Shown: positions 5,470 through 40,670 of the stretch, piece by piece
How positions within the stretch are numbered: the stretch's first letter is position 1
How the letters are laid out: each line of letters opens with the position of its first letter
Source: Woeseiaceae bacterium
GTDB lineage: Bacteria > Pseudomonadota > Gammaproteobacteria > Steroidobacterales > Woeseiaceae
Length of the DNA stretch: 40,670 nt
Assembly (NCBI GenBank): GCA_013043165.1
Contig: JABDOQ010000020.1
Span: forward strand, 1-40,670
Reading direction: 5' to 3'
Notes under the pieces: generated by a model
Database searches by the model: none
Seen by the model: the letters and a program-made list of their open reading frames with translations, nothing else
Told to the model about the DNA's origin: nothing
Translations under genes and position numbers: made by a program

Positions 5470-5490
5470 TCAGCCCAAGGAACTAAAATC

Positions 5491-11668: not shown

Positions 11669-11693
11669 TGACGCCCCACCAGGAACAGGTACT

Positions 11694-12953: not shown

Positions 12954-12975
12954 CGGTTCGGCGATTACTCCCCTC

Positions 12976-14052: not shown

Positions 14053-14054
14053 CA

Positions 14055-14858: not shown

Positions 14859-14870
14859 TATATGCTAATT

Positions 14871-14885
14871 CGCTGTTGGACAGCG
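14871..14885. promoter_or_regulatory. 6-3-6 inverted repeat upstream of dsrE3C
   Basis: CGCTGT, three bases (TGG), then ACAGCG form a perfect inverted repeat in the 52-base gap before the sHdr structural genes. Just upstream, around 14853-14870, is a second imperfect A/T-rich repeat (TTAG, six bases, CTAA) containing a possible -10 region. This is the only gap of this size between the lipoate operon and the hdr genes, so it is the natural place for a separate promoter and an sHdrR operator. Confidence 0.35.
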
Positions 14886-14910
14886 ATCTGACAGTAGGGA
14901 ACTGAAGAAA

Positions 14911-15288: not shown

Positions 15289-15306
15289 ACTACACAGGTT
15301 ACATAC

Positions 15307-16053: not shown

Positions 16054-16076
16054 CTGATTGAGTTCAGGAGACAACG

Positions 16077-18525: not shown

Positions 18526-18537
18526 GGCTGATCGACT

Positions 18538-19383: not shown

Positions 19384-19395
19384 ACGGAATAGCCA

Positions 19396-20163: not shown

Positions 20164-20179
20164 CAAGGACTCCTGATTT

Positions 20180-24149: not shown

Positions 24150-25889
24150 ATGAGCAAAACTGTACTCGATCCGGCCTTTCTGCGACAGCAAATTGTCGGC
24201 GTGGACTCCACGTTCGAAACGCCGTTCGGCGAGCGGCTGATGGTGTACTGCGACTACACGGCCTCGGGCCGCTGCCTGCGTTTCGTTGAATCTTACCTGC
24301 AAAGCCTGCAGCGTATTTATGCCAATACCCACACGGAGGATGACATCACGGGTCGCAGCATGAGCCAGCTATTGCACGAGGCTGAAGACGCGATCAAGCA
24401 GTCCGTCAACGCGGGACCGCAGGGACGAATTATTGCATGCGGTACGGGGGCGACCGGCGCAATCGACAAGCTGCAGCAGATAATCGGCGTCGCGCTTGCA
24501 CCGGCTACTCGGAAGAACATCGATGAAGCCCTGGACCGGCTGCATGTCGATGCCGACAGCGAATCGATCTGTGAACTGTTTCGGGACATTCAGCCGGTCG
24601 TGTTTATCGGCCCGTACGAGCATCATTCCAACGAAATTTCCTGGCGGCAGTCGCTTGCGACGACGATAGAAGTGAAGCTGGACGCAACCGGCAACATCGA
24701 CCTGTCGCACCTCGAGGAACTGCTCAATGATCCGCGCTACAAGAACCGCAAGCGCATCGGCTCATTCTCGGCGGCCTCCAACGTCACAGGAATGCGCTCG
24801 GATGTCCGGAGGATTGCAAGCCTGCTGCACAAATACGGCGCGATGGCGTGTTTCGATTTTGCGGCCTGTGCGCCATACGTCGATATCGATATGAACCCGA
24901 AGCCCCGGGGCGAGGGCGATGATCCGAGTATCGATGCAGTGTTCATTTCGCCACACAAATTTCTCGGTGGCCCGGGCTCCAGCGGTGTTCTGGTATTCAA
25001 CGAACGCATTTACGACCGTGAGCTGCCGCCCAGCGTAAGCGCGGGGGGCACGGTTGACTACGTCGGCATGACCGGCCAGGACTTCATCAGCGATGTCGAG
25101 GAACGTGAAAAAGCCGGAACGCCGGGGGTGCTGCAGACGCTCAAAGCCGGGCTGGTTTTCCAGATTAAGGACAGCGTAGGCGTTGATGTCATCAACGCGC
25201 GGGAACATGAGCTGACGGATCGCGCGATGAAGAGCTGGGCTGCGAACGAGAATATCGAGGTGCTGGGCAATCCGGATCCGAGCAGCCGTGTTGGCATTAT
25301 CTCGTTCAATATCAAAGACAGGAACGGCAAATACCTGCACCACAAGTTCATCACCGCACTGCTTAATGATCTTTTCGGCATTCAGTCACGCGCCGGCTGT
25401 TCCTGCGCCGGGCCATACGGCCATCGCCTGCTCGACATCGACGAGGACCTGTCGGAACGCTATCGCTTTGCCGTGCAGCAGGGTCACTGCGGGCTCAAAC
25501 CGGGCTGGTGCCGGGTCGGCTTGCACTGGGTCATGGACGATGCCGAGGCCAACTACATAATCGACGCGGTGCACTTTCTTGCGCACCAGGGGAGCCTGTT
25601 TCTCAACCTTTACGATTTCGAGCTGGGGACCGGCACCTGGAAGCACAGGTACTCGACGTCGGAATTGCCCAGGTTTTCGCTCGACGAAGCGCTGAGTGCC
25701 GACGAGGGCGAGCCGGCGATACTCTCGCTGGCATTGCGTCGGCAACTGTACAACCACTACCTGACCGAAGCGAAGCGTATTGCCGATCGGCTCAAAGAAG
25801 AACCGGCGACCGAGTACGCATCACTGGAAGGCGAGTTCGGTGATTTGCAGTTCTTTGCGCTGCGGGATGACGATCAGCAGCAGCACTAG
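24150..25889 (+). CDS. Class V aminotransferase, long cysteine-desulfurase-like PLP enzyme
   Basis: PLP-dependent enzyme of 579 aa, longer than IscS/SufS (about 400 aa). The PLP lysine is Lys270 in SPHKFLGGPGSSG, and the cofactor aspartate is Asp236 in FDFAA. A CSC pair (Cys417, Cys419) in RAGCSCAGPYG fits the active-site loop of cysteine desulfurases, so the reaction may be cysteine to alanine plus persulfide; a carbon-sulfur lyase is also possible. About 80 extra residues at the C-terminus follow the conserved domain and are charged and helical. No ribosome site is seen, and CATAAT ends only seven bases before the ATG, so the mRNA may be nearly leaderless. Its end overlaps the convergent acyltransferase by four bases. 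It may feed sulfur to persulfide carriers, but this is inference. Confidence 0.82.
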   Translation: MSKTVLDPAFLRQQIVGVDSTFETPFGERLMVYCDYTASGRCLRFVESYLQSLQRIYANTHTEDDITGRSMSQLLHEAEDAIKQSVNAGPQGRIIACGTGATGAIDKLQQIIGVALAPATRKNIDEALDRLHVDADSESICELFRDIQPVVFIGPYEHHSNEISWRQSLATTIEVKLDATGNIDLSHLEELLNDPRYKNRKRIGSFSAASNVTGMRSDVRRIASLLHKYGAMACFDFAACAPYVDIDMNPKPRGEGDDPSIDAVFISPHKFLGGPGSSGVLVFNERIYDRELPPSVSAGGTVDYVGMTGQDFISDVEEREKAGTPGVLQTLKAGLVFQIKDSVGVDVINAREHELTDRAMKSWAANENIEVLGNPDPSSRVGIISFNIKDRNGKYLHHKFITALLNDLFGIQSRAGCSCAGPYGHRLLDIDEDLSERYRFAVQQGHCGLKPGWCRVGLHWVMDDAEANYIIDAVHFLAHQGSLFLNLYDFELGTGTWKHRYSTSELPRFSLDEALSADEGEPAILSLALRRQLYNHYLTEAKRIADRLKEEPATEYASLEGEFGDLQFFALRDDDQQQH

Positions 25890-27222: not shown

Positions 27223-27372
27223 CTAGCGGCATTCGTCCTGGCGGGAGCAACCGCCGCACTTCAGCGACCTGGCCTTTGCATCCGGGTCGTGCCTCGCCAG
27301 CCACAGCTGGAATATCGCCCAGAGTCCACAGAGCAGGACCAACGCGAGCAGGGCAAGAAAATAGGTCATCAT
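27223..27372 (-). CDS. NqrM-like small membrane protein with four cysteines
   Basis: Protein of 49 aa: one N-terminal transmembrane helix (residues about 3-26, with Cys15 inside it), then a short polar tail with Cys39, Cys42 and Cys48 (CGGCSRQDEC). This layout is that of NqrM (DUF539), the factor that delivers iron to the cysteine-ligated centre between NqrD and NqrE. RnfA and RnfE are the homologues of NqrE and NqrD and carry the same intramembrane centre. The gene directly follows rnfA (18 bases), which strongly supports the role. It has two ATG codons in tandem, with 27372 chosen, and only a weak ribosome site. Confidence 0.72.
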   Translation of the reverse strand: MMTYFLALLALVLLCGLWAIFQLWLARHDPDAKARSLKCGGCSRQDECR

Positions 27373-27390
27373 CGTCCAGGCACGCTCCAC

Positions 27391-27969
27391 TCAGGCCGAA
27401 CTGAAAAGTCCGGCGAAACCCATAAACGCCATCGATAGTACACCCGCAATGATCAGGTTCATCGCCGTGCCTTTCATCAGTCGCGGGATATTGGACAGCT
27501 CTGATTCTTCGCGCAGTCCCGCCAGCAGCACAAGCGCAAGGGTGAAGCCGATGCCGGCGCCGAGCGCGTAGACGATACCTTCCATGAATCCGTAGCCGCG
27601 GTTGGTGGCGAAAATCGCGAGACCCAGAATCGCGCAGTTCGTCGTGATCAGCGGCAGAAAAATTCCCATGGCGCGAAACAGTGCGGGACTCAGTTTCTTG
27701 ATCAACATCTCGATGAACTGCACGGTGCTTGCGATCACAACGATGAAGCAGATCAGTCGCAGATACGGTGCGTAAATCAACACATAGGTGTTGAGTACCC
27801 AGGCGCACACCGCCGTCACGAGCATCACGAAAGTGGTTGCGAGCCCGAGTCGAGCCGAAGTCTCCAGCGAGTTGGACACGCCGAGAAACGGGCACAGCCC
27901 GAGGAAATAGGTCAGCACGAAGTTGTTGACAAGCAGTGCGCTGATGAAAATCCAGGCAAGGTTATCCAT
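27391..27969 (-). CDS. rnfA: RnfA, electron transport complex membrane subunit
   Basis: Integral membrane subunit of 192 aa of the Rnf ion-translocating ferredoxin:NAD oxidoreductase. It has six hydrophobic helices; the FISALLVNNFVLTYFLG start and the ITTNCAILG motif are family hallmarks. With RnfE it holds an intramembrane [2Fe-2S] centre through Cys in the NFVLTYFLGLC and TTNC segments. The frame extends two codons further to a GTG, but the ATG at 27969 has AGAGG five bases upstream and is preferred. It overlaps rnfE by eight bases. Confidence 0.95.
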   Translation of the reverse strand: MDNLAWIFISALLVNNFVLTYFLGLCPFLGVSNSLETSARLGLATTFVMLVTAVCAWVLNTYVLIYAPYLRLICFIVVIASTVQFIEMLIKKLSPALFRAMGIFLPLITTNCAILGLAIFATNRGYGFMEGIVYALGAGIGFTLALVLLAGLREESELSNIPRLMKGTAMNLIIAGVLSMAFMGFAGLFSSA

Positions 27970-28609
27970 TGCCACCTCTCTCAGCCGCAGCGACGTCGGC
28001 CAGGAACTCGTCCTTCTTGAAGCGGAACCAGTTAAAGAACAGCAGGATGACGCCGAGCGTCAGGAATCCGCCTGGCGGCAGGATCATGATGATCCAGGGC
28101 TCGAAGTTTTCACCGAAGAGATCAATTCCGAACAGCGCGCCATCCCCGAGTATCTCGCGGATCGCGCCGAGCGAGAACAGCGCCAGCAGGAAACCGCTGG
28201 CCATCCCCATGGCATCCATCACGGCGAGGCGCACCGGGTAGCGCGACGAAAACGCTTCCTGCCGGCCCAATATCATGCAGTTCGCGACGATCAGCGGGAT
28301 GAAAGCGCCCAGCTCCTTGTGCACTTTCGGCACGAGCGCGAGCAGCGTGTAGTCGGCGACCGTTACGAAAGTTGCGATGATGATGATGAAACAGGAGATC
28401 CTGACCTGTTTGGGGATCCAGTTGCGGAAACTCGATACGAGGAAGCTCGATCCCACCAGCACGAAAAACGTCGCCATGCCCATCGCGATTGCGTTGACGG
28501 CCGAGTTGGTGACCGCGAGCATCGGACACATCCCGAGTACCTGCACGAACACCGGGTTATCGCGCCAGATTCCCTTGATGAATTCCTCGTAGGACTCGTT
28601 CTGTTTCAT
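27962..28609 (-). CDS. rnfE: RnfE, electron transport complex membrane subunit
   Basis: Membrane subunit of 215 aa, related to RnfA and NqrD. Recognised by the N-terminal GIWRDNPVFVQVLGMCPMLAVTNSA region (given in parts: NPVFVQVLGMCP, LAVTNSA), by the IPLIVANCMILG motif that carries the second intramembrane-centre cysteine, and by six helices. A cytoplasmic tail of about 25 charged residues follows the last helix. It overlaps rnfG by four bases (ATGA) and rnfA by eight. Confidence 0.95.
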   Translation of the reverse strand: MKQNESYEEFIKGIWRDNPVFVQVLGMCPMLAVTNSAVNAIAMGMATFFVLVGSSFLVSSFRNWIPKQVRISCFIIIIATFVTVADYTLLALVPKVHKELGAFIPLIVANCMILGRQEAFSSRYPVRLAVMDAMGMASGFLLALFSLGAIREILGDGALFGIDLFGENFEPWIIMILPPGGFLTLGVILLFFNWFRFKKDEFLADVAAAERGGNG

Positions 28610-29289
28610 GGACTCCCCCCGGAACCCGCCGGGCCGGTCCCGCGCAGAGGTGGCTCGCTACCCGCTGGCGGAAGCCGTTTCGACCATTCGGCATGCGCTT
28701 CGTTAATTATCCTGACGACGGCCTTCGAAGAAATGGTCGCGCCCGTAATCGCATCTATCTCGTTCGGCCTGGCCTTGGCGCCTTTCTTGACCGCGACAAT
28801 GTTCGGTTCGATAGACAGCGCGCTGAAACTGCCGACGAATTCGGCGTCTTTGTAAATCTTGTCGCCAAGTCCCGGCGTCTCCCGGCTCTCGAGTATTTCC
28901 ATGCCGAGCACGTGTTTTTGTTGCGGCGCGAAGCCATACAACAGGCCAATCGTGTCCTGGAAGCCGGGGCCCGCCGCCGGAATTGCATAGCCGACGAAAT
29001 CGCCGTCACGGTCGTAGCCGCCATAAACGGCCTGCTCGTCTTTGCGTCGCTCCTCGGTCACGACAAGGTTGCCGTCCCTGTAGACAAGCTGCTGCATTTC
29101 GCTGACGCCCGGCAGCACTTTGAACACGGCCTCGCGCAGCTCGCGAGCCTTGTTCGCTGTAATTGTGGGCAGCGTGGATTCGTAGATTCCGATGATCGCG
29201 ATACCCGATATCAGTCCCGCGATCGCGAGCGTCAGCACGAGGCGCAGCGAGCTGGGCGCCGGCGCATTCATTTGCGCGCTGCTTGTCAT
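28606..29289 (-). CDS. rnfG: RnfG, FMN-carrying subunit
   Basis: Subunit of 227 aa with one N-terminal membrane helix (about residues 15-37) and a periplasmic domain that binds FMN covalently. The flavinylation site is Thr185 in DAITGATISS, matching the S/TGATxS/T motif used by the ApbE flavin transferase. The LESRETPGLGDKI segment is typical of RnfG/NqrC. No apbE gene is in the window. The C-terminus has a Pro/Gly-rich tail of about 20 residues beyond the domain. It overlaps rnfD and rnfE by four bases each. Confidence 0.94.
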   Translation of the reverse strand: MTSSAQMNAPAPSSLRLVLTLAIAGLISGIAIIGIYESTLPTITANKARELREAVFKVLPGVSEMQQLVYRDGNLVVTEERRKDEQAVYGGYDRDGDFVGYAIPAAGPGFQDTIGLLYGFAPQQKHVLGMEILESRETPGLGDKIYKDAEFVGSFSALSIEPNIVAVKKGAKARPNEIDAITGATISSKAVVRIINEAHAEWSKRLPPAGSEPPLRGTGPAGSGGSP

Positions 29290-30305
29290 GGCGAATCGGC
29301 TCCGCGACCGAATACGCGCGGCTGCGTATAGCGATCGATGAGCGGGGTCGCGGCGTTCATGAGCAGGATCGCGTACATCACGCCTTCAGGCAGACCGCCG
29401 AATACGCGGATCAACATCACGAGTACACCGACACCGATGCCAAAAATCCACGCGCCTCGAGGAGTGACCGGCGAGGTGACGGGATCGGTCGCCATATAGA
29501 TCGCGCCCAGCAACAGGCCGCCGGAGAAAACCGAAAACAGGGGCGTGGGATATCGCGCCGCGTCGACAAGACTGAGAACAGCGGAGAACAGCACCACGGT
29601 CAGCAGGATGCTGACCGGTATACGCCAGTCGAGGTCGCGGCGCAGCCATAGATAGATGCCGCCGAGCAGCAGCAGTACGCCACTGGTTTCTCCGAGCGAG
29701 CCGTTGATCTTGCCAAACATCAGGTTGGCGAGCGGCGTCACTTCCTGGTCGAACTTGAGCATCCCCAGCGGCGTTGCCGCGGTCACGCTGTCGATGCCTG
29801 ACTGCATAAACGGCAGCGCGAGACTGCTCGCATAGACACTGGTAAATTCTCCGCCGTAGCTGTTCACTACCCAGGTGGTCATGGCAATCGGAAATGTTGC
29901 CTGCAGGAATGCGCGACCGAGCAGCGCGGGATTAAACAGGTTGTGACCGAGGCCGCCCCAGATGACTTTGCCCAGGCTGACGCCGACGAATCCACCGAGG
30001 AATGCCATCCACATCGGCAGACCGGGCGGCAGCGTCAGGCCGAGTAGCAGGCCCGTCAAAACGGCGGTTGCATCGCGCAGGGATTCGCCGCGCCGCTGGC
30101 CGTTGTCGAACAGCCATTCGGCCAGGACGGCGCCGGCAATGCTCGCGCCGAGCAGGAGCAGGGCGCTCAGCCCGAAAAACCATATCGAGGCCGCTGTGGC
30201 CGGCAACAACGCATAGATAACGTCGCGCATCGCTTTCGGCGTGGTCATGCCCTGGCGCAGCAGCGGCGCGTGAAACAGCAGGAGATCCGGGTCCTTCTTG
30301 TTCAC
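29286..30305 (-). CDS. rnfD: RnfD, membrane subunit with covalent FMN site
   Basis: Membrane subunit of 339 aa homologous to NqrB. About nine to ten hydrophobic helices are visible. The covalent FMN threonine should lie in VTAATPLGM; most family members read SGATPL, so the Ser-Gly is changed to Thr-Ala while the Thr-Pro-Leu remains. The open frame continues far upstream in rnfC, but the GTG at 30303-30305 overlaps the rnfC stop (GTGA), has AGGAG-like sequence before it, and gives the family N-terminus (KKDPDLLLFHAPLL), so it is the start used. It overlaps rnfG by four bases. Confidence 0.93.
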   Translation of the reverse strand: MNKKDPDLLLFHAPLLRQGMTTPKAMRDVIYALLPATAASIWFFGLSALLLLGASIAGAVLAEWLFDNGQRRGESLRDATAVLTGLLLGLTLPPGLPMWMAFLGGFVGVSLGKVIWGGLGHNLFNPALLGRAFLQATFPIAMTTWVVNSYGGEFTSVYASSLALPFMQSGIDSVTAATPLGMLKFDQEVTPLANLMFGKINGSLGETSGVLLLLGGIYLWLRRDLDWRIPVSILLTVVLFSAVLSLVDAARYPTPLFSVFSGGLLLGAIYMATDPVTSPVTPRGAWIFGIGVGVLVMLIRVFGGLPEGVMYAILLMNAATPLIDRYTQPRVFGRGADSP

Positions 30306-31648
30306 TCCTCGGGCTCCTTGCGGTGGGTCAGGTCGTCTTTCGCGGTACGGATGAGCTGCACGATCGGAATACTTGAGGGGCAGGCAAACGTGCAGCAGCC
30401 GCATTCGACGCAGTCGAAGACATGGTAGGCCTTCATCGCATCGTACATGCGCGCCCTGGACAGGCGCGCCAGTCGTGACGGATTCAGGAAATACGGGCAA
30501 GCCTCGAGGCATCGGCCGCAGCTAATGCAGGGATACTCCTTGCGCCTTGCCGTTTCTGCTTCGGTGAAGACCAGCACGCCCGAGCATCCCTTTAAAACCG
30601 GTACGTCGAGGCTTGCGATCGGCCGGCCCATCATCGGCCCGCCCATGATGATCTCGCGGCTCTCTCCTTTGAGTCCGCCGCAGAACCTGACGACCTCGCG
30701 CACGGGCGTGCCGAGCGGCACGACGAGGTTCGCAGGGTAGGTTACGCCCGGACCGGCCACCGTGAGGACGCGCTCAATCAACGGCAGTCCGCGCAAAAAA
30801 TAGTCCGCGATCGCGACGATCGTACCGACGTTGTTGACGTTGACTTCCACGTCGCGAGGTAGCTGTCCCGCGGGCACCTCCTTGCCGAAGACGCTCTTGA
30901 TCATCATTTTTTCCGCGCCCTGCGGATATTTCACCTTGAGCGGCACGACGCGCACGGGCTGGCCTGGCTGGATGTGCCGACGGATGATCTCTATCGCATC
31001 GGGCTTGTTGCTCTCCACGCCGATGATCGTTTCCTCGGCGCCGAGTTTTTGCCGCACGATTTCCGCGCCGTCGAGCAGCGCATCCGGCCGCTCGACCATG
31101 AGGCGGTGGTCATTCGTGAGATAGGGTTCGCACTCCGCCCCGTTGACGAGCAGGTGCCGGATCCTCACGCCATCGGGCACCGACAGTTTTACATGCGACG
31201 GAAATGCTGCGCCGCCCAGGCCGACGATACCGGCCATCTGCACGGCTTCGATGAACTTCTCCAGCGACAGCGACTCCCAGTCCTGCGCTGCACCGGCATC
31301 GACCTGTTGCGTTGCAAACGGATCGGCTTCGATCGCGATCGCCGGCGCGAAGCGGCCATCCGCGCCGCGAAAATTGCCAACCTCGCGGATCGTCCCGGTT
31401 ACCGGGCTGTGCAGGGCCGTAGAAACGAAACCGCCCGGTTCGGCAATGATCTGCCCGCGCCGCACCCGCTCGCCGGCGACAACAACGGCTCGACTGGGCA
31501 CGCCGATATGCTGGCCCAGCGGCATGACGTAATCTTTGACGAACGGCACGCGCTGAATCGGCAGGTCCTCGGTCTGCGCCTTGTGGTGGGCAGGGTGGAC
31601 TCCGTGCTCGAAGCTGTGGCGCAGAAGACTGAGTGGTTTCATCGTCAT
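30302..31648 (-). CDS. rnfC: RnfC, NADH- and FMN-binding subunit
   Basis: Peripheral subunit of 448 aa that exchanges electrons with NAD(H). The N-terminal barrel-sandwich segment, the Gly-rich GLGGAAFPSHVK loop (about residues 143-154) for nucleotide or FMN binding, and two ferredoxin motifs near the C-terminus (CISCGRCLEACP and CVECGCCTFACP) are clear. It lacks the long Ala/Lys-rich C-terminal extension of E. coli RsxC (about 740 aa), so it is the short type. It overlaps the upstream 1475-aa gene by four bases (ATGA), which places that gene inside the rnf operon. Confidence 0.95.
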   Translation of the reverse strand: MTMKPLSLLRHSFEHGVHPAHHKAQTEDLPIQRVPFVKDYVMPLGQHIGVPSRAVVVAGERVRRGQIIAEPGGFVSTALHSPVTGTIREVGNFRGADGRFAPAIAIEADPFATQQVDAGAAQDWESLSLEKFIEAVQMAGIVGLGGAAFPSHVKLSVPDGVRIRHLLVNGAECEPYLTNDHRLMVERPDALLDGAEIVRQKLGAEETIIGVESNKPDAIEIIRRHIQPGQPVRVVPLKVKYPQGAEKMMIKSVFGKEVPAGQLPRDVEVNVNNVGTIVAIADYFLRGLPLIERVLTVAGPGVTYPANLVVPLGTPVREVVRFCGGLKGESREIIMGGPMMGRPIASLDVPVLKGCSGVLVFTEAETARRKEYPCISCGRCLEACPYFLNPSRLARLSRARMYDAMKAYHVFDCVECGCCTFACPSSIPIVQLIRTAKDDLTHRKEPEE

Positions 31649-34600
31649 CGGTCCCGCTTGCGCGATGCCAGTTCCATCAGGCGGCTGCGAATCTTGCTCG
31701 CGATTTCGACCTCGATCTTCTCCTGCATCTCCCGGACTCGTGTATCGGAGGCCTCGCTCTGTGCATCGAGTTCCGCCTGATGTTCGGCTGCGACCTCGGC
31801 GCGTATCTCCTGCTCCAGGCGCTCGGTGAACGGGGTCACAATACCCGCGAGCTCCTGCAGGGTTTGCCAGCCCTGCAGACTCTGCTCGACCATCTCGAGC
31901 ATGGCCGGTGCCATCGAGTAGCGCCGCTGTTCTTCGCCCGTACCAACGGCAACGTACGGCGTCTTTCTATCGCGACTCCTGGCGTCCAGCCGCAGCCACT
32001 CGTGCAACGCGACCGGCGCGGCTGCTTCGGCCGACAGCGACTCGAAGTTCGTCCTGAAGCGCTCCTGTCCTATCGCCCAGTCTGCTGCGGTCAGCGGCCG
32101 TTCCCCGTCCGCATCCTGCACCATCGTCTCCTCCATCTGCGCATTGCCCTGCAGACTGATGCGCGACCCGAATACACCATGGATCGTTGGGTCGTATTGG
32201 AACAACGGCATCGCGCGGCTGCGGACCGCAAGTTCTGCCTGCGGCAGCGTTTGCTCGCTTGTGAATCCATGCCGTGTTGGACTGGGCGCGTAGGCCTGGA
32301 GCAGTGCAGGGCCACCGTAGCTCAGCGCCTTGAGCATACTCTCGCCCAGGTGAACCGGATCGGCGACCGAGGTTTGCGCGACAAATGCTTTCCGCTGTGC
32401 CAGTGCGAGCAGTGCAAGACTCGCTCTCGGATTGTTGGTCGGCGCCTGTGCGGTCGTGGCGGCAGGATCGTTCGCAAGGCCAAAGTCCAAAGCGCTCAGC
32501 ACCAGCACCTTGACCGGCAGACCCGAGTTCAGAAGCCAGATCAGCTGCCCCAGTCCTCTTCCCGCGAGCATTTCGTCGCTGCCGACCAGCAGCAGCGGCG
32601 GACACAGTGCGTATTCCTCGTCGCTGAGATCCTTCCAGCTCAATTTCGCGAGCGCGTCCCGTTTCCACTCCAGGCCGTCGGGTCTGTCGATTTCGAGGCG
32701 CGCCAGCCGCAGCAGGCGGATCAGCTCCGTGGTCTCCTCGAGGTGTCCCTCGATCAGGCCCGCCGCGAGCTGTGCGGCATCACCGCTCATATCGATGAGT
32801 ACCGGCGCCTGGAACGGGTTGTTCGGAAACGTGCCGGCCCATTCCGCCGCGCTGCCGCCCGCGACCACCAGTCCATAGCGGGCGCGGCCGAGGCCGTGTT
32901 CGCCTTGCACAAGCCGATGGTGCGCCGACGTGATCTGCCCGGCGAGCTCGATTAACCTGAGGAGATAGCGCGTATCGATGGAATGATCCGCCGACGTTTT
33001 TCCGGCGCCCTCCGCAAGCGTCTTCAGATCAACACGCGGACTCGTCGTACGTTTCAGTTGCTCGGTGACCGCGTCGAGATCTTCGACGGCGAGCGTGCCC
33101 GATAGCGTATCCGTGACCAGCGCCGTGACGGACTCGCCGGTCTCCGCAAGCGTTTTGGCAAAACGTTGCACCAGCGGCTGCTGGTGGAATTCAGTCGCGG
33201 CGAGGACTTGCCTGACCGCCATTTTTTCGCCGGAGCCGGCTTCGGCCGCATCGCCGCCGGCCAGCGCGAACTGGCAGAAACGCGATAACAGTATCGCGGC
33301 CATCGCACCAATTTCCGGGTCGCTTGCGACGCGCTCGATGGTTTCCGCCGCGGTATCGGCGGTGTTGGCCCAGATCGGCCAGAGTTCACGCGCGGCGTCG
33401 AGCGCCGCCGTATCCTGTTCGTGCGCGCGCAGCGCCCCGGGCTCGCAGCTTTCGATACAAATGCCGCAGGCTTTGCAGGCATCCGCATTGATGGCCAGTG
33501 ACAGGAGTTCCGCGCTGTCTTTCTTCTGCGCTTCGGCCCTGTGAAAGAACGGCTCAGTCACCGCGGCGGGTAGCGCTCCGATCTCGGCGCCTATCGCCGC
33601 AAGGCCCTCACGAATCGCCTGTTTGCGATCATCGGTCAACGGCATCTTTTCTTCGAGCCACGAAAAAGACTCGTCGAGCATCTCGCCAAACGTTTTCGCC
33701 GTATTCCCGTCCGCTTTGTCGCGAGCTTTGCAGTCGGCGATTATCCGCGATGCGAGTTTACCTGACACTTGCCGCACAGCTTCTGCGCCCGTGCGCGCTA
33801 TCGCCGTATCGATCAGCGTAGCCGGAGTCGACGCGACAACGCCGATCGCGCTGTCCGGGCAATGTGTCCAGCACAATCCGCAGCCTGTGCAAAGCGCCGG
33901 GTCAAAAACCGGCAGCATCCGGCGTGCGTCGCCCAGGTTGTTGAAGGTCGAACTCAGCGGCGGCATGGTGCCGGTCGCGAGATAGGGATCCGCGGTCAGC
34001 TGGTCCGACTGCCCGTCGCGGTACAGCACGCCAAGCTGATCCCAGAAGCGCGGCAAACTTGCATAGTGGTCGTCGTTGCGGCCGAGGTGGCGCACGGCCG
34101 CAGGCGCCTCTTCGTCCCATCGCTTTAGCGCGGCGACGGGCGCGGCTTGAGCGCGATCGATCACGGTGACCTGCTCGAGACCCGACTGAAAAGCGTCCAG
34201 CAGTTTTTCGTGGCGCACCTTCTCGACGCCATCGAGCATGTCGCGTCGTTCAGCGATCACACGTCGAGCCTTGGAATCGAGCAGCCCGGTCTCCAGTAAT
34301 ACGCCGAACAAGCCGCCAAGCAGCGACTCGGCGGCCAGTTCGCCGCCTGTTTCGCCTTGCGCCTGAATCGGCACCTGGAAGACTTTGGGTTCCTTGCCGA
34401 GCAGCAGCTGCCCGCTCGAAGTAACAAGCGTGATGTCGGCGACCAGCCCATCGCCGGGATCCTGCAGCGTGTCGTCGCCGTGCGTAAGCCAGTCTGTGCG
34501 CTGCGTGGAGCCGCGCTGCCAGGAGATCGCGGGCCGGCTGCGCACGCGGCCGCCATTGAGTCGATGCAGCAGGGCGCCGGCCGCCCCGAGCAGAGCGTCC

Positions 34601-36072
34601 GTGCTGCGAGCGCTGCCTTGCTGTATCGCAACGGTCAGCGTGCTGCTCTGTCGCGGCGAGGCCGCATGGCGATCCGCGCGAATGCCCATTGTCGCGGCAT
34701 CCGGGTAGGCGCGTCGCAACGCGTCCAGCAGCACCTCACGCTTGGGCTGCGTGCCCGAGGTGTCGTCGAACGCCAGGCCCAGGAACAGCGGTGCGGCGGA
34801 GGACGCGTCGGCGTTGACGCAGAGCTCGATCAGGTCGGCGACCCGCAGCGGCAATCCGCCGACGCCGTAGACCACGGAGCGACATCGAGGCTGCTTGCTT
34901 TGCAGGCCGGCGCGGACTTCGCGGAGCAGCGGCGGCTCGCCGGACATCGGCGCGTCGGTGCGTTCGAGAACGAACACCTGCTCCTTTCCTTGCAGCGCAT
35001 CGACAATGGCGGCACCGGGAAACGGCCGGAGTGCGTGGATACCGAGTACTCCGACCGGAATATCGTGTTGTTTGCGGAGACAATCCGCGGCGACGCGGGC
35101 CGTCTCGACGACGGCACCCTGTGCCAGCAGCACGGTTTTCGCGTCATCCAGCTTGTAGCGCGAGACGGACTCGTGGCGACGGCCGGTTTTCGCCGCGAAC
35201 TGCTCGAAAGATCTGGCCAGCGACTCTCCGACAAAAGCATCGAAGTAGATTCTGCGAGCAGACGCTCCGAGCGCGAAGCTCTCTTTTTCGAACAGCGCGC
35301 CGCTCAGCACCGGCTCATCCAGGTCATGCCACGCCGGCACCCGGCGACGGGTTTCGCCGAAAAGAACTTTTTGCGCCGCCGTTGGCGACTCGATTTGTTG
35401 TCGCGCCGGGCCGAGGAATCCGTCGATCTGAGCCGGCGATGGCAGCCGCACATCCTGCGCCGCCAGGGCCGTCTGCTCACCGTCCATGATGACCATGCCC
35501 GGCACCAGTGCCTCTTCCGCTACTTGCCTTGCAATATAAGTAAAATCAACAGCTTCTTGAACATTCATTGCAAATAACATGAAGAAACCGGCGTCGGCGC
35601 CGAGGTGAACCGAGTCGTGGCCGCTGCCGAGAGCGGCGCCGTGGGCGGCAGCCGCGCGCGTGCCGAGATGCAGCACCAGCGGCGCATGCTTGCCGGCGAC
35701 GGAGATCAGCAGATCCTGTGCCGCGGCGAGATCCGGCCCGGACAGGAACGCGGTTGCGCGCCGGCCGGACAGTGCCAGTCCGGTCGCCGCCGCGATGGTG
35801 CCGCGTGGTCCCTCGGCGGTCTGTGCAGCCTGCGCCTCGCCGAACAGGTTGGCGTTGCCATGCTCGAGCTCGGCCAGCCAGACCGCTTCCGATTCGCCCG
35901 ACGGAAACGAGCCGCCCAGCACCGCGTGGCCCGCGATTCCGGCTTCGGCCAGCGCAACCGCGCTGTCGCCGTCGAGTACGGTGTTGAGGCCCTCGTCCTT
36001 GATGTCGGAACCCGATGGCGCACCGAAAGTCCTGCGGTACCAGCGAATTGCAATGTCGCGCAGGCCAGCCAT
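31645..36072 (-). CDS. Rnf-linked PFOR/NifJ-like pseudoenzyme with two [4Fe-4S] sites
   Basis: Protein of 1475 aa with the domain order of single-chain pyruvate:ferredoxin oxidoreductase. Residues about 20-220 match the POR N-terminal (pyrimidine) domain, 310-430 domain II (IHALRPFP, VLER), 475-600 the gamma domain, 720-880 the ferredoxin domain (Cys728-731-734-738 and Cys866-869-872-876), and 1070-1411 the TPP domain. Key sites are lost: the substrate segment YPITPSS is replaced by GSFPSGES, the cysteine-rich CAGCGE cluster site of the TPP domain is missing, and the GDG of the TPP motif reads GSD (about 1164-1166) with no TGGQ loop. It ends in a charged coiled-coil-like helix. ATG 36072 overlaps rnfB (TGATG); a frame to 36129 is ignored. 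It sits between rnfB and rnfC, so electron conduction in an Rnf complex is inferred. Confidence 0.82.
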   Translation of the reverse strand: MAGLRDIAIRWYRRTFGAPSGSDIKDEGLNTVLDGDSAVALAEAGIAGHAVLGGSFPSGESEAVWLAELEHGNANLFGEAQAAQTAEGPRGTIAAATGLALSGRRATAFLSGPDLAAAQDLLISVAGKHAPLVLHLGTRAAAAHGAALGSGHDSVHLGADAGFFMLFAMNVQEAVDFTYIARQVAEEALVPGMVIMDGEQTALAAQDVRLPSPAQIDGFLGPARQQIESPTAAQKVLFGETRRRVPAWHDLDEPVLSGALFEKESFALGASARRIYFDAFVGESLARSFEQFAAKTGRRHESVSRYKLDDAKTVLLAQGAVVETARVAADCLRKQHDIPVGVLGIHALRPFPGAAIVDALQGKEQVFVLERTDAPMSGEPPLLREVRAGLQSKQPRCRSVVYGVGGLPLRVADLIELCVNADASSAAPLFLGLAFDDTSGTQPKREVLLDALRRAYPDAATMGIRADRHAASPRQSSTLTVAIQQGSARSTDALLGAAGALLHRLNGGRVRSRPAISWQRGSTQRTDWLTHGDDTLQDPGDGLVADITLVTSSGQLLLGKEPKVFQVPIQAQGETGGELAAESLLGGLFGVLLETGLLDSKARRVIAERRDMLDGVEKVRHEKLLDAFQSGLEQVTVIDRAQAAPVAALKRWDEEAPAAVRHLGRNDDHYASLPRFWDQLGVLYRDGQSDQLTADPYLATGTMPPLSSTFNNLGDARRMLPVFDPALCTGCGLCWTHCPDSAIGVVASTPATLIDTAIARTGAEAVRQVSGKLASRIIADCKARDKADGNTAKTFGEMLDESFSWLEEKMPLTDDRKQAIREGLAAIGAEIGALPAAVTEPFFHRAEAQKKDSAELLSLAINADACKACGICIESCEPGALRAHEQDTAALDAARELWPIWANTADTAAETIERVASDPEIGAMAAILLSRFCQFALAGGDAAEAGSGEKMAVRQVLAATEFHQQPLVQRFAKTLAETGESVTALVTDTLSGTLAVEDLDAVTEQLKRTTSPRVDLKTLAEGAGKTSADHSIDTRYLLRLIELAGQITSAHHRLVQGEHGLGRARYGLVVAGGSAAEWAGTFPNNPFQAPVLIDMSGDAAQLAAGLIEGHLEETTELIRLLRLARLEIDRPDGLEWKRDALAKLSWKDLSDEEYALCPPLLLVGSDEMLAGRGLGQLIWLLNSGLPVKVLVLSALDFGLANDPAATTAQAPTNNPRASLALLALAQRKAFVAQTSVADPVHLGESMLKALSYGGPALLQAYAPSPTRHGFTSEQTLPQAELAVRSRAMPLFQYDPTIHGVFGSRISLQGNAQMEETMVQDADGERPLTAADWAIGQERFRTNFESLSAEAAAPVALHEWLRLDARSRDRKTPYVAVGTGEEQRRYSMAPAMLEMVEQSLQGWQTLQELAGIVTPFTERLEQEIRAEVAAEHQAELDAQSEASDTRVREMQEKIEVEIASKIRSRLMELASRKRDR

Positions 36073-36914
36073 CAGCGCACCCCGGCCCGCCGCGATTCCT
36101 GCTCCTGAAACTGCTCTCCCTCGAGCCACACTATCGAGTGCGTGGCGCAGCGAAACACGGCGTCAGGCCGGGCAGGGCCGCCGGCTGAGTAGTCGATGAC
36201 CGGCAGGTTGTTTTCCATGTGGATCAACCCGGGTGCGGCGTCCGCGACGCACTTTCCACAGGCATCGCAGGCCACGGAACAGAGCTGCCTCGCGGCTGCG
36301 CCTGCCAGAGGGATGTTGCACTGCACGTAGAGGTTTTGCTTAAGCGGCACCAGTTCGAACAGGTCCCGGGGACAGGCGGCGCTGCAGTCGGGGCATGCCG
36401 TGCATTTTTCGGTATCCACCTGTGGGAGGCCGTTGGCATTCATGTGAATTGCGTCGAAAGTGCAGGCCGCTTCGCAGTCCGCGAGGCCGAGACAGCCCCA
36501 GGCGCAGCCTTTGCCGCCCCCCGAGACCACGGCGGCCGCGCGACAGCCTTCGAAACCCTGGTACTCGGCGATCTGGTGCGCCTGCCGGGCGCCGCCGCCG
36601 CAGCGCAGACGCGCGACCAGTTTTTCCTTGCGGCCGGCATCGACATTCAGAAACTCGGCGATGCGTTCGATATCGTCGTCGGAGCTGACCGTGCACTGGC
36701 CCGGCTCGACTTTGCCAGCGACCAGTTTTTCTGCAAACGGCAGGCAGCCGGGTTGTCCGCACGCGCCGCAATTGGTCCCGGGCAGCATGGCGTTGGTCGC
36801 CTCTATTCGAGGGTCTTCGTCCACTTTCAAAAAGCGCTGTGCGATCGCGAGAATTGCGCCAAAGAGCAATCCGATTCCCGCCATGATGGCCGGCGCTATG
36901 AGCAGGCTGTTCAT
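36072..36914 (-). CDS. rnfB: RnfB, long form with multiple iron-sulfur clusters
   Basis: Ferredoxin-docking subunit, 280 aa, with an N-terminal membrane helix (about residues 5-27). The first cluster motif, Cys49-Cys52-Cys57-Cys74, is the RnfB hallmark. A cysteine-rich second half follows (CAWGCLGLADC, CTACPDCSAACP, CSVACDACGKC), giving three or more further clusters. E. coli RsxB is about 190 aa with three clusters, so this is the longer type, as in clostridial and Bacteroides Rnf. It overlaps both neighbours by one base (TGATG). It is the likely electron entry or exit point to the PFOR-like partner encoded next. Confidence 0.95.
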   Translation of the reverse strand: MNSLLIAPAIMAGIGLLFGAILAIAQRFLKVDEDPRIEATNAMLPGTNCGACGQPGCLPFAEKLVAGKVEPGQCTVSSDDDIERIAEFLNVDAGRKEKLVARLRCGGGARQAHQIAEYQGFEGCRAAAVVSGGGKGCAWGCLGLADCEAACTFDAIHMNANGLPQVDTEKCTACPDCSAACPRDLFELVPLKQNLYVQCNIPLAGAAARQLCSVACDACGKCVADAAPGLIHMENNLPVIDYSAGGPARPDAVFRCATHSIVWLEGEQFQEQESRRAGVR

Positions 36915-39361
36915 CAGTTGAACGGTTCGGCGCGAGCGATCAACTCATCCAGACCCGGCTCATTGGGATCCAGCGGCTTGCCGGGGTGGATGCACTTTGC
37001 GGGACAGATCTCGGCCGCCGCCACGAGGTCGGCGTACGTGCCTGCTTTTGGATCGCGGAGGATAGCCTGCTTGTTGTCGTTGTAGGCAAACATCATCTTG
37101 TTGATGCCCATGCAGTCGTCGCAGGTCGTACACATCGCCGTGTCGAGCCACGGTTCATCGAAACTGAGCTCCTCCTCGGCTTCAGGCTCCGCTGCAGGTT
37201 CGGCTGCCGCCGCTTCCGCGACAGGCTCTGGCTGCGCTTCGGTTTTGGCCGCTTTCGTCGCCGGCATAGTGGCGGGCTGGCTGCCTGCGCCGACGAGGTC
37301 CGACAGGTCGGCGCCCATCAGCACGTCAACGAGCTGTCCCATAACGTCACCAGCCGCCTCCGTTCGAACGTTTTCCAGCTGTTCCTCGTGAGCTTTCAGA
37401 AGCTGTTCACGTTCGGCCGCGTCGGCCGCCTGCTGTTCCCTCGTAACCCGTTCGATCGCCTCTTCAACATAGAAGTTATGAATCCCGGCCAATTCCTGCA
37501 GCGTGCGCCAGTAGTTCAGCCGGTCACGGCATGCAAATACCAGCGCACGGGACACGACCAGCCGCGTCAGCACGCCCTGGTCGTCGATTCCCCAGACGTA
37601 CGGCACCTGGCGATTGACGAGCTTCTCCTCGAGATCAAGGTATTGATTGACCGGAACCAGTTCGTCGGACTCGAATCCCGCAGGCACCATGCGAAAATGC
37701 ACATGCAGCGCCGGTATCAGCAGCGCGTAGTCGGCGAACGTAAAAGCAAGGTTCATCTCGGTCAGTTCACCGTCGGCACCGCGATACTCGAGTTTCTCGA
37801 GCGGCCAGTCGTTTTCTGCCTGCGGGTTGCCGTCGAAGCGGACCCGTTCCGCGGCGTGGTCGCCGGCGTCCGGGTTGACGAGAATGAAAGGATGGGCGCG
37901 GCTTTCCAGCGCAGCGCTCGCGACAAACCATGCATCGAGCAGCGGTTTGTCCACCTGGGTTTGTGTGCCGCGGTTGATAAGATGCAAACTCGCGCGATTG
38001 CTGTCCAGCGCGCAAAGGAAACCCGCCAACAGGTCCTCGTGGCGCGCTGCCGACGTCTGCGCAACGACAACCTGGCGGTGCCCTACGCCAAAATAGGCGA
38101 GTTCGAATCGATAGCTATCGAAAGGGTCGCCGCCGGGTTTGGCGCCCGGATTGTCGTAGGCGCGGACCCAGCTGAGCACATGAACCGGCAGGCGCGATCC
38201 GAGCAGGCGCGAAAACGGCGGCAAGCCGTCGCCGGCAAGATAGTCGGCAGATACCAGCGCGACTACCGGCGTTTGCAGCTGCATCTCTTCGTCCGAGAAC
38301 GCCTGCCAGTCGAAACCGGCGAACCAGGAATCGTGTACGTCCGCGTTGTAGCTATTGTCGATTTCAAGCGCCGCGATTCTGACGGCGGCAAACAAACGCG
38401 CGAAACTCTCGGCGTCGCGCTGGTATACCTCGGCTGCCGTTGTGCATGGATCGTCGCTGTCGATGACTTCAATCGCGGGCAGCTCACTGAAGTCGGCATC
38501 GTCGAGCCGACCGACGAACCTGGCCGCAACCGCGTTTTCCTCCCACGCCTGCAGCTCTTCAAGCGCGTGCTCGATTCGAGTCCGACGGTCGGCCGGCATT
38601 TCCACGGATCCCGGCGTGCGCTGTTCGAGCATTCCCGAAAACGCGCCCGTGTCGAAATAGCGTGATGCCTGGCCGACAGTGCCGGGGGCATCCGTCGACT
38701 TTGCTTTCTCCACATCAAGCAGCGACTCCAGCCCGTGAATGTGTCGCTCGACAACCTGGCGGAACTTCTCGCGGCCGTGTTCACGGCGATGCCGGATCGC
38801 GTGCAGCATCAGGTGCAAAGACACGCGCGGGCCGTAAGCGAGAAACCGTCCGCCCGCGGCGATCGTGGACTTTAGTCTTTCGAGTTGGGCGGCCAGCTGT
38901 TCCCGACTGGCCTGGTCCAGCCCCAGGTGCTCCTGCAAAGCGCTGGCTGCATCGTCAAACAGGGTGTGCGCATCAACGGGATCCAAAGCGTCGAGTTTCT
39001 GACGCAGGAAACGTTCTATCCACGCAACATTGTCCTTCAGTATCCTGGCGTCTTCGGCGTCGGGCGCAAACGCGTGCAGCGAGTCAGAAAAATGCTCGCT
39101 TACGGGTTTCGCGAGCTTTTCGTCGGTCCCGCCGCCTGGCGGAACCAGGTAGAGCGGATACTGGTAACGGATCGCCGATGCGTCACGGTAGGGATTGAGC
39201 AGGGCCGGCAGCATGGCGCCGGCAGGCTTCGCGGTACGCTCGGCCGCGGCAGGTTCACCAAAGTGAAATCGACGCAGCAGGCCGATAGTGTCCTTGGCAA
39301 CATTACCCTCCGTTTTGGCCATGTCGGGTGCGTCCTGCTTGTTTTCCGTTAGCGGGTTCAT
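36914..39361 (-). CDS. Rnf/KOR-linked 815-aa protein: degenerate TPP-like domain plus ferredoxin motif
   Basis: Unrecognised large protein of 815 aa. Residues about 350-627 repeat the degenerate TPP-domain of the 1475-aa neighbour: both have FSDEE/LSDEE, then a hydrophobic strand, SADYLAG/GSDEMLAG, LPVHVLSW/LPVKVLVL, VVVAQTS/AFVAQTS and WRTLQELAGI/WQTLQELAGI. After this come a charged helix (about 635-670), an Ala/Glu/Pro linker (695-735), and an iron-sulfur motif Cys744-Cys747-Cys750 with Cys786 and Cys790. The N-terminal 340 residues are helical, acidic and without cysteine clusters. TPP-binding residues are absent. It lies between korB (30 bases) and rnfB (one-base overlap), so it probably docks the oxidoreductase on Rnf. 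Confidence 0.8.
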   Translation of the reverse strand: MNPLTENKQDAPDMAKTEGNVAKDTIGLLRRFHFGEPAAAERTAKPAGAMLPALLNPYRDASAIRYQYPLYLVPPGGGTDEKLAKPVSEHFSDSLHAFAPDAEDARILKDNVAWIERFLRQKLDALDPVDAHTLFDDAASALQEHLGLDQASREQLAAQLERLKSTIAAGGRFLAYGPRVSLHLMLHAIRHRREHGREKFRQVVERHIHGLESLLDVEKAKSTDAPGTVGQASRYFDTGAFSGMLEQRTPGSVEMPADRRTRIEHALEELQAWEENAVAARFVGRLDDADFSELPAIEVIDSDDPCTTAAEVYQRDAESFARLFAAVRIAALEIDNSYNADVHDSWFAGFDWQAFSDEEMQLQTPVVALVSADYLAGDGLPPFSRLLGSRLPVHVLSWVRAYDNPGAKPGGDPFDSYRFELAYFGVGHRQVVVAQTSAARHEDLLAGFLCALDSNRASLHLINRGTQTQVDKPLLDAWFVASAALESRAHPFILVNPDAGDHAAERVRFDGNPQAENDWPLEKLEYRGADGELTEMNLAFTFADYALLIPALHVHFRMVPAGFESDELVPVNQYLDLEEKLVNRQVPYVWGIDDQGVLTRLVVSRALVFACRDRLNYWRTLQELAGIHNFYVEEAIERVTREQQAADAAEREQLLKAHEEQLENVRTEAAGDVMGQLVDVLMGADLSDLVGAGSQPATMPATKAAKTEAQPEPVAEAAAAEPAAEPEAEEELSFDEPWLDTAMCTTCDDCMGINKMMFAYNDNKQAILRDPKAGTYADLVAAAEICPAKCIHPGKPLDPNEPGLDELIARAEPFN

Positions 39362-39391
39362 CGTGTCGGTCCGCCACGCAGTTTGCGCGGG

Positions 39392-40345
39392 CTAAATAGC
39401 GAAATGGTCCAGAGCCTCGTTCATGCCGGCCAGCCTGTCGTCGACGCTCATCTCCATGCCGACTGACGTCATCATGTCGTACCGCGGTGCATCCGGGTTG
39501 TGATAGAGGATTCCCAGCGGCAGGGCTGAACTGTCTTCTGCCAGTTCGCGTGCGGCATGGAGGTCCGACGGATCATGCTCGGCGTGATTCGGGAACAGCC
39601 TCTTGACCCCGTCGTCGAGCTGAATGCCTTTCTCGTGCGTCAGCAATTTCATCCGCGCGGGTTCGTCCTGCAGACTTTTACCGATTGCCTCTACGTACAC
39701 GGGGCAGCGCTGAATAATACGGACGAAGCTGGTGCCCTTGTGCTGGTGCGCTTTCATGATCACTTCGTGCCGCAGCGGCGCGTTCCAGTCGACAATCTGG
39801 GCGACAAAAGAAATATTTGTCACGCCGAGGGTCACCGTCAGCGGGTTCAGTGGCGGCAGCAGCGCGCCGGATGGATGCGTATTGGTCGGCACGTCCATCG
39901 GCGTCGTGGGAGACGTTTGCTTCTTGGTCAGGCCGTAAATGCCGTTGTCGAATACGAGCAGCGTGATATCCATGTTGTAACGCATGGCGTGGATCCAGTG
40001 CGCCGCACCGATCGAGAAGCAGTCACCGTCTCCGGTCGCGACCCAGACATCCAGGTCGGGGCGCCGCGACTTCACGCCACAGGCGACCGGCAGCGCGCGC
40101 CCGTGCAGGCCGTGAAACCCGTAGGTATTCATATAGTGCGGCAGGCGGCTGGAACAGCCGATGCCGGAGACCGCCACCGTTTTTTCCGGTTTGATCTGCG
40201 AATCGCGGCATACCCTGTGTACGGCTGCCAGGATGCCGTGGTCGCCGCAGCCCGTACACCAGCGCGGCTCCGCGCCCGAGTAATCCTGCAACGTGAAATA
40301 GCGTTCCTTGACGTCGAGAGACCAGTCACCTTTCAAGCCGAACAT
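39392..40345 (-). CDS. korB: 2-oxoacid:ferredoxin oxidoreductase beta subunit (KorB-like)
   Basis: TPP-binding subunit of 317 aa, probably of 2-oxoglutarate:ferredoxin oxidoreductase. Cys30 and Cys33 in WCTGCGDHG, with Cys64 and a later Cys in QRCPVY, form the proximal [4Fe-4S] site. The TPP/Mg motif is intact: GDGD at residues 105-108, then Asn134 in DNGIYGLT. The segment TNTHPSG...PPLNPL is the KorB-like substrate loop. The open frame extends to 40438, but the ATG at 40345 overlaps the korA stop (TAATG) and gives the family N-terminus. It is the only catalytically intact TPP domain in the operon. Confidence 0.92.
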   Translation of the reverse strand: MFGLKGDWSLDVKERYFTLQDYSGAEPRWCTGCGDHGILAAVHRVCRDSQIKPEKTVAVSGIGCSSRLPHYMNTYGFHGLHGRALPVACGVKSRRPDLDVWVATGDGDCFSIGAAHWIHAMRYNMDITLLVFDNGIYGLTKKQTSPTTPMDVPTNTHPSGALLPPLNPLTVTLGVTNISFVAQIVDWNAPLRHEVIMKAHQHKGTSFVRIIQRCPVYVEAIGKSLQDEPARMKLLTHEKGIQLDDGVKRLFPNHAEHDPSDLHAARELAEDSSALPLGILYHNPDAPRYDMMTSVGMEMSVDDRLAGMNEALDHFAI

Positions 40346-40670
40346 TATTCTGCTCCTTCCATCTTCTTGAGGCGTGCATCGATGATCCTGCCGATGGTGC
40401 CTGGTTGAAGCGGGTGCCCCGGGACCTTGGACCAGCAATCGATGTCGATCAGCGTGTGTGCGCGCAGCATGAGCGCGAGCTGTGAGATGCGGCGATTTTC
40501 TTCGTTGATCATTGGCGCATCGGGATCGTCGCTGTAGTTGATTTCGATGGTCATCACTTTCTTGAATCCCGAAAAAATTTTCTTCAAGCCCGGCTCCAGC
40601 GGTGACAGGAATCTCAGGTGCACGGATGACACCTTTTTACCCTGCGCCCTCGCCAGGTCGACGGCTTCCT
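40345..40670 (-). CDS. korA: 2-oxoacid:ferredoxin oxidoreductase alpha subunit, C-terminal part
   Basis: The last 108 residues of a gene running off the right edge; the frame is open to 40670. The sequence shows the KorA C-terminal signature HLRFLSPLEP...IEINYSDD (read in parts), NEENRRISQLALMLRAHT and the final helix, matching domain II of the alpha subunit. The rest, with the gamma and pyrimidine domains, lies outside. It is coupled to korB by a one-base overlap (TAATG). The promoter of the whole kor-rnf operon must be to the right of the window. Confidence 0.88.
   Translation of the reverse strand, partial: EAVDLARAQGKKVSSVHLRFLSPLEPGLKKIFSGFKKVMTIEINYSDDPDAPMINEENRRISQLALMLRAHTLIDIDCWSKVPGHPLQPGTIGRIIDARLKKMEGAE

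Follow-up and report, generated by a model that had tools for sequence, protein, structure and literature searches.

Gene organization of the locus

The window analysed here, a stretch of 40,670 nucleotides from a Woeseiaceae bacterium, corresponds to the complete contig C86 (40670 bases) in a 113-contig genome of 3.19 Mb (G000; estimated completeness 98.4%). Its minus strand carries an uninterrupted run of genes that joins a two-subunit 2-oxoacid:ferredoxin oxidoreductase (OFOR), KorAB, to an Rnf complex, together with two large proteins of 815 and 1475 residues that derive from pyruvate:ferredoxin oxidoreductase (PFOR). All frames are free of internal stops, and they follow one another in the order korA-korB-815-aa gene-rnfB-1475-aa gene-rnfC-D-G-E-A-small open reading frame (ORF):

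40345..40668, minus strand: korA, C-terminal 107 aa only; remainder on contig C49 (L021:12781-14724)
39392..40345, minus strand: korB, 317 aa, ATG start; beta subunit that binds thiamine, carrying the GDG motif and four cysteines as candidates for a cluster
36914..39361, minus strand: 815-aa protein; dead PFOR C-terminal part plus C-terminal ferredoxin
36986..37144, minus strand: residues 740-792 of the 815-aa protein; fused ferredoxin (Fer4_13) resembling D. africanus ferredoxin I
36072..36914, minus strand: rnfB, 280 aa, long form
31645..36072, minus strand: 1475-aa protein; PFOR-derived pseudoenzyme with two [4Fe-4S] motifs and no ferredoxin tail
33859..33891, minus strand: residues 728-738 of the 1475-aa protein; first 4Fe-4S motif (C728, C731, C734, C738)
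33445..33477, minus strand: residues 866-876 of the 1475-aa protein; second 4Fe-4S motif (C866, C869, C872, C876)
30302..31648, minus strand: rnfC, 448 aa; NADH/FMN domain and two 4Fe-4S motifs
29286..30305, minus strand: rnfD, 339 aa, GTG start
28606..29289, minus strand: rnfG, 227 aa; FMN_bind
27962..28609, minus strand: rnfE, 215 aa
27391..27969, minus strand: rnfA, 192 aa, ATG start
27223..27372, minus strand: small ORF, 49 aa; kept behind rnfA in related loci, resemblance to NqrM judged by eye only

The korA gene is truncated by the end of C86, and its N-terminal part is found at the end of contig C49 from this genome, the two pieces overlapping by 41 residues at 100% identity. From korB onward the gaps between genes are +30, -1, -1, -4, -4, -4, -4, -8 and +18 bp, and every gene that the original prediction had placed in one minus-strand operon is present. 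A scan of the operon for promoters and terminators stayed at the chance level given by shuffled sequences (3 vs. 2.4 expected; 11 vs. 12.4 expected), and because the gaps between neighbours span only -8 to +30 bp, there is little room for separate promoters. Chance adjacency was ruled out by the conservation of the same gene order in two phyla. Decaying pseudogenes were also ruled out, since the frames are open and the differences from one relative (G260) fall mostly at third codon positions, at 0.088, 0.073 and 0.311 for codon positions 1, 2 and 3 of the 815-aa gene and 0.136, 0.096 and 0.379 for those of the 1475-aa gene.

Two PFOR-derived pseudoenzymes beside apparently intact KorAB and Rnf

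Related loci are referred to below as type A (the arrangement of the window), type B (Rnf-linked), type C (rnfB-intact PFOR-rnfCDGEA) and type D (linked to NfnAB). The 1475-aa protein matches the PFOR fold over 737 aligned residues, and the C-terminal part of the same fold is recognisable in the 815-aa protein (intact PFORs were included in both alignments and may pull the models towards PFOR). The 1475-aa protein has lost the YPITP motif, the GDG/NTGGQ thiamine motifs and the four proximal-cluster cysteines, while all eight wire-cluster cysteines are kept. It scores 118.9 against TIGR02176, for which the cut-off is 911.35; since the intact PFOR on contig C111 of the same genome also falls below this cut-off (413.4), it is the loss of motifs rather than the score that decides whether the 1475-aa protein is a catalytic PFOR. 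All 24 sequences of the motif table retain the electron-carrying cysteines; in that table L058 is cut before GDG, L075 is cut before the tail and L077 lacks the N-terminus. In the 815-aa protein the PFOR active-site motifs are likewise absent; its ferredoxin is the only Pfam match, NCBIfam gave none, and the ferredoxin cysteines are kept in 12 of 12 aligned sequences. Both large proteins are thus PFOR-like pseudoenzymes, as had been proposed from the window alone.

The ferredoxin tail of the 815 family is absent in five complete loci, two of which have a tail-less 815 directly beside an intact, tailed PFOR; in one of the other three the PFOR it faces is divergent and truncated ahead of the tail, the second has a PFOR-Rnf operon on another contig, and the third has no visible partner. 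L108 is counted as tail-less in the table of 64 loci described below, a count to be read with the fact that its profile match does cover the tail. The surviving wire cysteines, the fused ferredoxin and this tail pattern, with tail-less 815 beside tailed PFOR, lend support to a role of the two proteins in electron wiring. Since the 815-aa protein carries its own ferredoxin domain, a free ferredoxin may be dispensable, which goes part of the way towards the earlier proposal that none is used. In addition, a long predicted helix closes the PFOR-like part in both proteins and is a possible pairing element.

KorA is an alpha-gamma fusion that contains the YPITP motif, and its piece on C49 reaches 492.8 bits against TIGR03710 (cut-off 482.75). 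KorB lies below the TIGR02177 cut-off (228.2 vs. 261.9), with TPP_enzyme_C and PFO_beta_C above theirs. Judged by the thiamine and 4Fe-4S motifs, which are kept, KorAB looks intact and active. Among solved KorB structures the best match is the 2-oxoglutarate:ferredoxin oxidoreductase (OGOR) of Magnetococcus (E 7.6e-50), an enzyme of the reverse tricarboxylic acid (rTCA) cycle, closely followed by a Sulfolobus 2-oxoacid enzyme; 2-oxoglutarate is a likely but unproven substrate here.

In searches with curated models, the Rnf subunits exceed their cut-offs for RnfA (235.9 bits, cut-off 229.3), RnfB (78.4, 68.7), RnfC (512.5, 245.95), RnfD (336, 207.05) and RnfE (228.8, 213.4); RnfG is just below its own (96.6, cut-off 102), and FMN_bind passes in Pfam. 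The set of A, B, C, D, E and G is complete and looks intact; its ion-coupled ferredoxin:NAD+ activity is a prediction. All 20 cysteines of RnfB are invariant across 20 type-A, 4 type-B and 22-23 type-C rows, and RnfC retains its eight cluster cysteines in 18 of 18 type-A rows, 3 of 3 type-B rows and 24 of 24 or 25 type-C rows. Of the 20 fetched type-A loci, 17 have the small ORF after rnfA, and L047, L054 and L058 stop before rnfA is reached; this short frame of 49 aa gave no Pfam match at E 0.01, which leaves its earlier description as NqrM-like unproven. A third rnf set occurs in the same genome, with rnfC, D and E matches beside a gene that we take by eye to be metG-like.

A probable PFOR-Rnf prototype and putative intermediates

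Contig C111 of the same genome (L022:5987-16128) encodes rnfB-PFOR-rnfCDGEA, in which the PFOR motifs are intact and the same ferredoxin tail is present. The same arrangement with an intact, ferredoxin-tailed PFOR was also observed in type-C loci L073-L080 and L082-L101, several of them cut by contig ends. Type-C operons apparently represent a PFOR wired to Rnf, and the C111 operon is the likely prototype of the operon in the window. The intact rnfB-PFOR form is also found on plasmids of Persicobacter (Bacteroidota) and Gemmatirosa (Gemmatimonadota), and on the Gemmatirosa plasmid PFOR-Rnf is preceded by korAB and by a 344-aa protein that matches the 815 type weakly. Two loci of Myxococcota, L124 and L125, are arranged as korA-korB-short 815-rnfB-intact PFOR-rnfCDGEA, the short 815 being without a ferredoxin tail and the PFOR being tailed. 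Seven further Myxococcota loci have 815-type frames of 1268-1608 aa (starts not fixed), and the frame of L123 retains PFOR_II. These loci look like intermediates in a series that leads from PFOR-Rnf, through KorAB and a small adaptor placed beside it, to KorAB with only dead PFORs.

Linkage of the 815 family across genomes

In the first search, 12 of the 13 loci carried the titles of Gammaproteobacteria, Chromatiales or Woeseiaceae metagenome-assembled genomes (MAGs), and the 13th (L017) was titled a Deltaproteobacteria MAG and assigned to Myxococcota by the tree tool. Wider searches used genome samples drawn evenly from larger groups, and 21 of the 22 type-A genomes of the order sample belong to one genus. 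Matches to the 815 profile were found in 60 of the 296 genomes of the order sample, many through an intact PFOR alone, and short 815 fragments in other genomes of that sample (e.g. G236, G175 and G165) were left unclassified. The phylum sample yielded 12 of 398 with a wider profile, consisting of the window, ten frames of 1651-1698 aa (PFOR size) and one unclassified 562-aa frame, and 58 of 377 Myxococcota genomes matched, the matches being of both kinds and those of PFOR size mostly not being fetched.

The 64 fetched 815-family loci come from Woeseiales-like Gammaproteobacteria and Myxococcota, and comprise 20 of the 22 type-A genomes (G214 and the window are not among them), all 4 of type B, all 7 of type D and 33 loci from Myxococcota. 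Upstream of the 815-type gene, korB is present in 58 loci (a distance of up to 3 kb being allowed for the longer 815 frames of some Myxococcota) and nfnB in 10; downstream of it, rnfB is present in 42. Five of the six loci without korB (L060, L067, L126, L136 and L138) are within 1.1 kb of a contig end; L127 is not. Where rnfB follows 815, a complete long PFOR-type frame comes next in 35 of the 42 loci (33 pseudo, 2 intact), six loci are cut by the contig end, and one (L113) has none. Twelve loci have neither rnfB nor nfnB: seven reach a contig end (L067, L137 and L142-L146), L118 reaches its contig end in a 1475-type match immediately behind 815, L139-L141 are tail-less short forms, and L127 is unlinked. 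Given that korB is found in 58 of 64 loci and that Rnf and Nfn vary, the constant partner of the 815 family is KorAB and not Rnf, and the 815-aa protein looks like a KorAB adaptor able to face either Rnf or the Nfn transhydrogenase.

NfnB-korA-korB-815-like operons are present in both phyla (L065, L066, L068, L069, L070, L072 and L108-L111), with NfnA ahead of NfnB in six order-sample loci and L108, and with the upstream region cut off in L109-L111. They place another NAD(P) module, a bifurcating transhydrogenase, next to KorAB and a dead PFOR that bears a ferredoxin. A further shared element is DUF6538, a Pfam domain that forms the N-terminal domain of phage-type integrases. It starts KorA at L021:12781-13080 and does so in 16 of the 20 type-A loci that were fetched, the remaining four having a cut or missing korA, and it is also N-terminal on NfnA in 4 of 6 type-D loci (L065, L066, L068 and L072), the domains being 55-61% alike between types. 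No match was obtained in type B or L017, later Myxococcota loci lying outside the scan, and a literature search for DUF6538 yielded no paper. The domain is possibly autoregulatory or serves docking.

The phylogenetic trees are quick searches with SH-aLRT support only and midpoint roots. In the tree of the shared C-terminal part (81 rows), for which a long-branch warning applies, the 815 family falls on one side of one branch and the pseudo-1475 proteins on one side of another, both with SH-aLRT 100. KorA sequences of type D cluster across the two phyla in their tree (support 100), and the A-type KorA of the window clusters with seven A-type ones from Myxococcota (support 96), so that operon type outweighs phylum. 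The split is not a clean one: the Myxococcota A-type sequences do not form one clade.

Neighbouring genes in the window

Two other regions of the window, 10631-21112 and 3413-7796, encode two radical SAM proteins, a lipoate ligase family protein, CCG and Fer4 proteins, an ATP sulfurylase and an AprA-like gene. The cluster is putatively sHdr-like, and the two regions are likely to serve sulfur oxidation. A histone deacetylase-domain protein (9408-10589) adjoins the sulfur cluster, and a 579-aa cysteine desulfurase-like protein (24150-25889) lies far under the curated cut-offs.

Proposed mechanism and direction of electron flow

On balance we lean towards the interpretation that the operon specifies a membrane 2-oxoacid:NAD+ oxidoreductase, a dead PFOR serving to connect KorAB to the Rnf ion pump. 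The 1475-aa and 815-aa proteins would pair like the halves of a PFOR dimer, and KorAB would dock on the 815-aa protein. Electrons may then pass, approximately in this order, from the KorB cluster to the 815 ferredoxin, on to the 1475 clusters and RnfB, and through RnfC to NAD+, and Rnf would pump ions. The wiring of KorAB to RnfB/RnfC foreseen in the original prediction is plausible, both proteins being PFOR-derived, the 1475-aa protein keeping the wire clusters and the 815-aa protein carrying a fused ferredoxin; the contacts of the supercomplex itself stay conjectural. With 2-oxoglutarate as substrate, an oxidative run would recover energy that 2-oxoglutarate dehydrogenase (ODH) does not, presumably when iron-sulfur enzymes can work, i.e. 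at low oxygen. Oxidation of 2-oxoglutarate with NAD+ leaves about 0.18 V by textbook potentials, enough for about two ions per two electrons. Rnf works in both directions, and one ion per electron is given as the most likely ratio in the available text of PMC5861303.

The same complex might instead run in reverse, the ion gradient driving NADH electrons via Rnf and the dead PFOR into KorAB for the reductive carboxylation of succinyl-CoA, with PFOR-Rnf acting likewise for acetyl-CoA. This was the direction originally proposed, with sulfur oxidation as a source of NADH, and that source is conceivable given the sulfur-oxidation-like cluster in the window. Reverse operation would also fit the presence of PFOR-Rnf in the same genome, since both ferredoxin-dependent carboxylases could then be ion-driven, as well as the kinship of KorB with the Magnetococcus OGOR, and the available parts of PMC7414866 and PMC5861303 state that Rnf can carry out reverse electron transport. 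However, RuBisCO was found in only 8 of 33 carrier genomes and gave no match in the genome of the window, ODH is retained in 31 of 33 (the two misses, G256 and G171, being 76 and 80% complete), and the citrate-binding domain of ATP-citrate lyase was found in 0 of 33, although the same search rang in no control genome. The ODH and RuBisCO counts favour an oxidative, energy-saving role, and the KorAB-Rnf complex is probably reversible and run oxidatively; the reductive reading, left without support by these counts, appears somewhat unlikely. ODH in 31 of 33 carriers also rules out KorAB as the sole 2-oxoglutarate oxidase.

Alternatively, the genes may be operon partners whose products form no stable complex, KorAB reducing the 815 ferredoxin as an ordinary soluble ferredoxin for Rnf, and the 1475-aa protein being a soluble relay or regulator. 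The type-D operons show that an 815-type protein with NfnAB can work without Rnf and 1475, and L139 and L141 have no rnf match in the 10-11 kb after 815. We nevertheless judge loose partnership rather unlikely, because 35 of the 36 loci that have rnfB after 815 and extend far enough show a complete PFOR-type frame behind rnfB, and a carrier of about 800 aa would be a costly free ferredoxin. It is very improbable that the dead PFORs serve chiefly as structural or regulatory elements with no part in electron transfer, KorAB using another ferredoxin: regulatory pseudoenzymes typically lose catalytic residues, as these have, but it is exactly the electron-carrying cysteines that are retained throughout the motif table, and the ferredoxin cysteines throughout the aligned 815 sequences.

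Several observations weigh against a membrane KorAB-Rnf oxidoreductase built from one fixed operon. NfnAB takes the place of Rnf beside 815-family genes in 10 of 64 loci. In the single-contig Myxococcota genome G1038, L113 has korA-korB-815-type (1384 aa)-rnfB, with no 1475-type gene or rnfC in the next 11 kb, which also suits partners that form no stable complex. L127 (12474-16595) encodes a standalone PFOR-derived protein of 1373 aa with a ferredoxin tail and neither GDG nor YPITP, and no kor or rnf match occurs within its 20-kb stretch; matches of similar size were found in five more genomes, and all six (G796, G833, G852, G866, G871 and G933) carry KorAB on another contig, their KorAs falling among Rnf-linked KorAs. 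The expectation that the large families travel with kor and rnf thus holds for korB and only in part for Rnf. The specificity of KorAB is likewise read from similarity, with the Sulfolobus 2-oxoacid enzyme nearly tied as a relative (5.1e-49), the direction is judged from the presence or absence of other pathways, and the sulfur-oxidation-like cluster suits the reductive direction too. Finally, the KorA tree groups Rnf-linked type B with Nfn-linked type D at 99, and in the C-terminal-part tree type-B 815 groups with D and type-B pseudo-1475 with A; such mixed groupings are expected if a KorAB-815 module changed partners.

Comparison with known systems and implications

The Rnf complex of the window resembles known ones in RnfA, B, C, D, E and G with their NADH/FMN and cluster motifs, and differs in the two PFOR-derived proteins, one of them ferredoxin-fused, encoded beside and between rnfB and rnfC. 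Compared with PFOR/NifJ of D. africanus and M. thermoacetica, the fold is shared by the 1475-aa protein and, in its C-terminal part, by the 815-aa protein, whereas the active-site motifs and proximal cluster are lost and there are two genes. KorAB agrees with the two-subunit OFORs of Magnetococcus and Sulfolobus in its KorA alpha-gamma fusion, KorB and intact motifs, but is encoded with its own ferredoxin-bearing partner and has the extra N-terminal DUF6538 on KorA. The electron-bifurcating transhydrogenase NfnAB is absent from this window and replaces Rnf in the type-D branch, where NfnAB-like genes are joined to KorAB and an 815-family protein.

Among the closest described systems are the rTCA clusters of tubeworm symbionts and Thioflavicoccus, which combine KorABCD, Flx-Hdr, a transhydrogenase and Rnf, and for which a complex shuttling electrons to OGOR was suggested (PMC6315080, followed up in PMC11636981). 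According to the available text of PMC6315080, OGOR genes are clustered with Rnf there too, but they encode a four-subunit KorABCD interspersed with Flx-Hdr, no pseudo-PFOR is mentioned, and the dimeric KorAB of the E. laminata symbiont sits elsewhere, among other TCA genes. In Kentron symbionts, Rnf, Kor, PFOR and ODH are present and the usual CO2-fixation genes absent (PMC6593406, in the portions available). The accessible text of PMC6315080, PMC11636981, PMC4914600, PMC6593406, PMC10052474 and PMC5861303 contains no mention of a pseudo-PFOR or ferredoxin-bearing adaptor. In agreement with the original prediction, the literature search, for which subscription journals lay mostly outside the scope, returned no description of this composition in the texts available.

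Collectively, Rnf and OFOR are of known kinds, and what is new here is the proposed dead-PFOR wiring, which would define a new class of enzyme if the complex is demonstrated. More tentatively, such a class of ion-pumping 2-oxoacid:NAD+ oxidoreductase may have arisen from an ancient PFOR-Rnf in which PFOR died and became an electron conduit and KorAB docked onto it, with a sister branch in which the pump was swapped for bifurcating NfnAB with the same 815-type adaptor. If true, this would be a clear case of an enzyme retained as wiring after the loss of catalysis, with likely intermediates still living. For the carriers, which include Woeseiaceae MAGs, energy would then be coupled at one of the steps of the TCA cycle itself, and low-potential electrons would be passed on without free ferredoxin, which could matter for bacteria living at the oxygen boundary.

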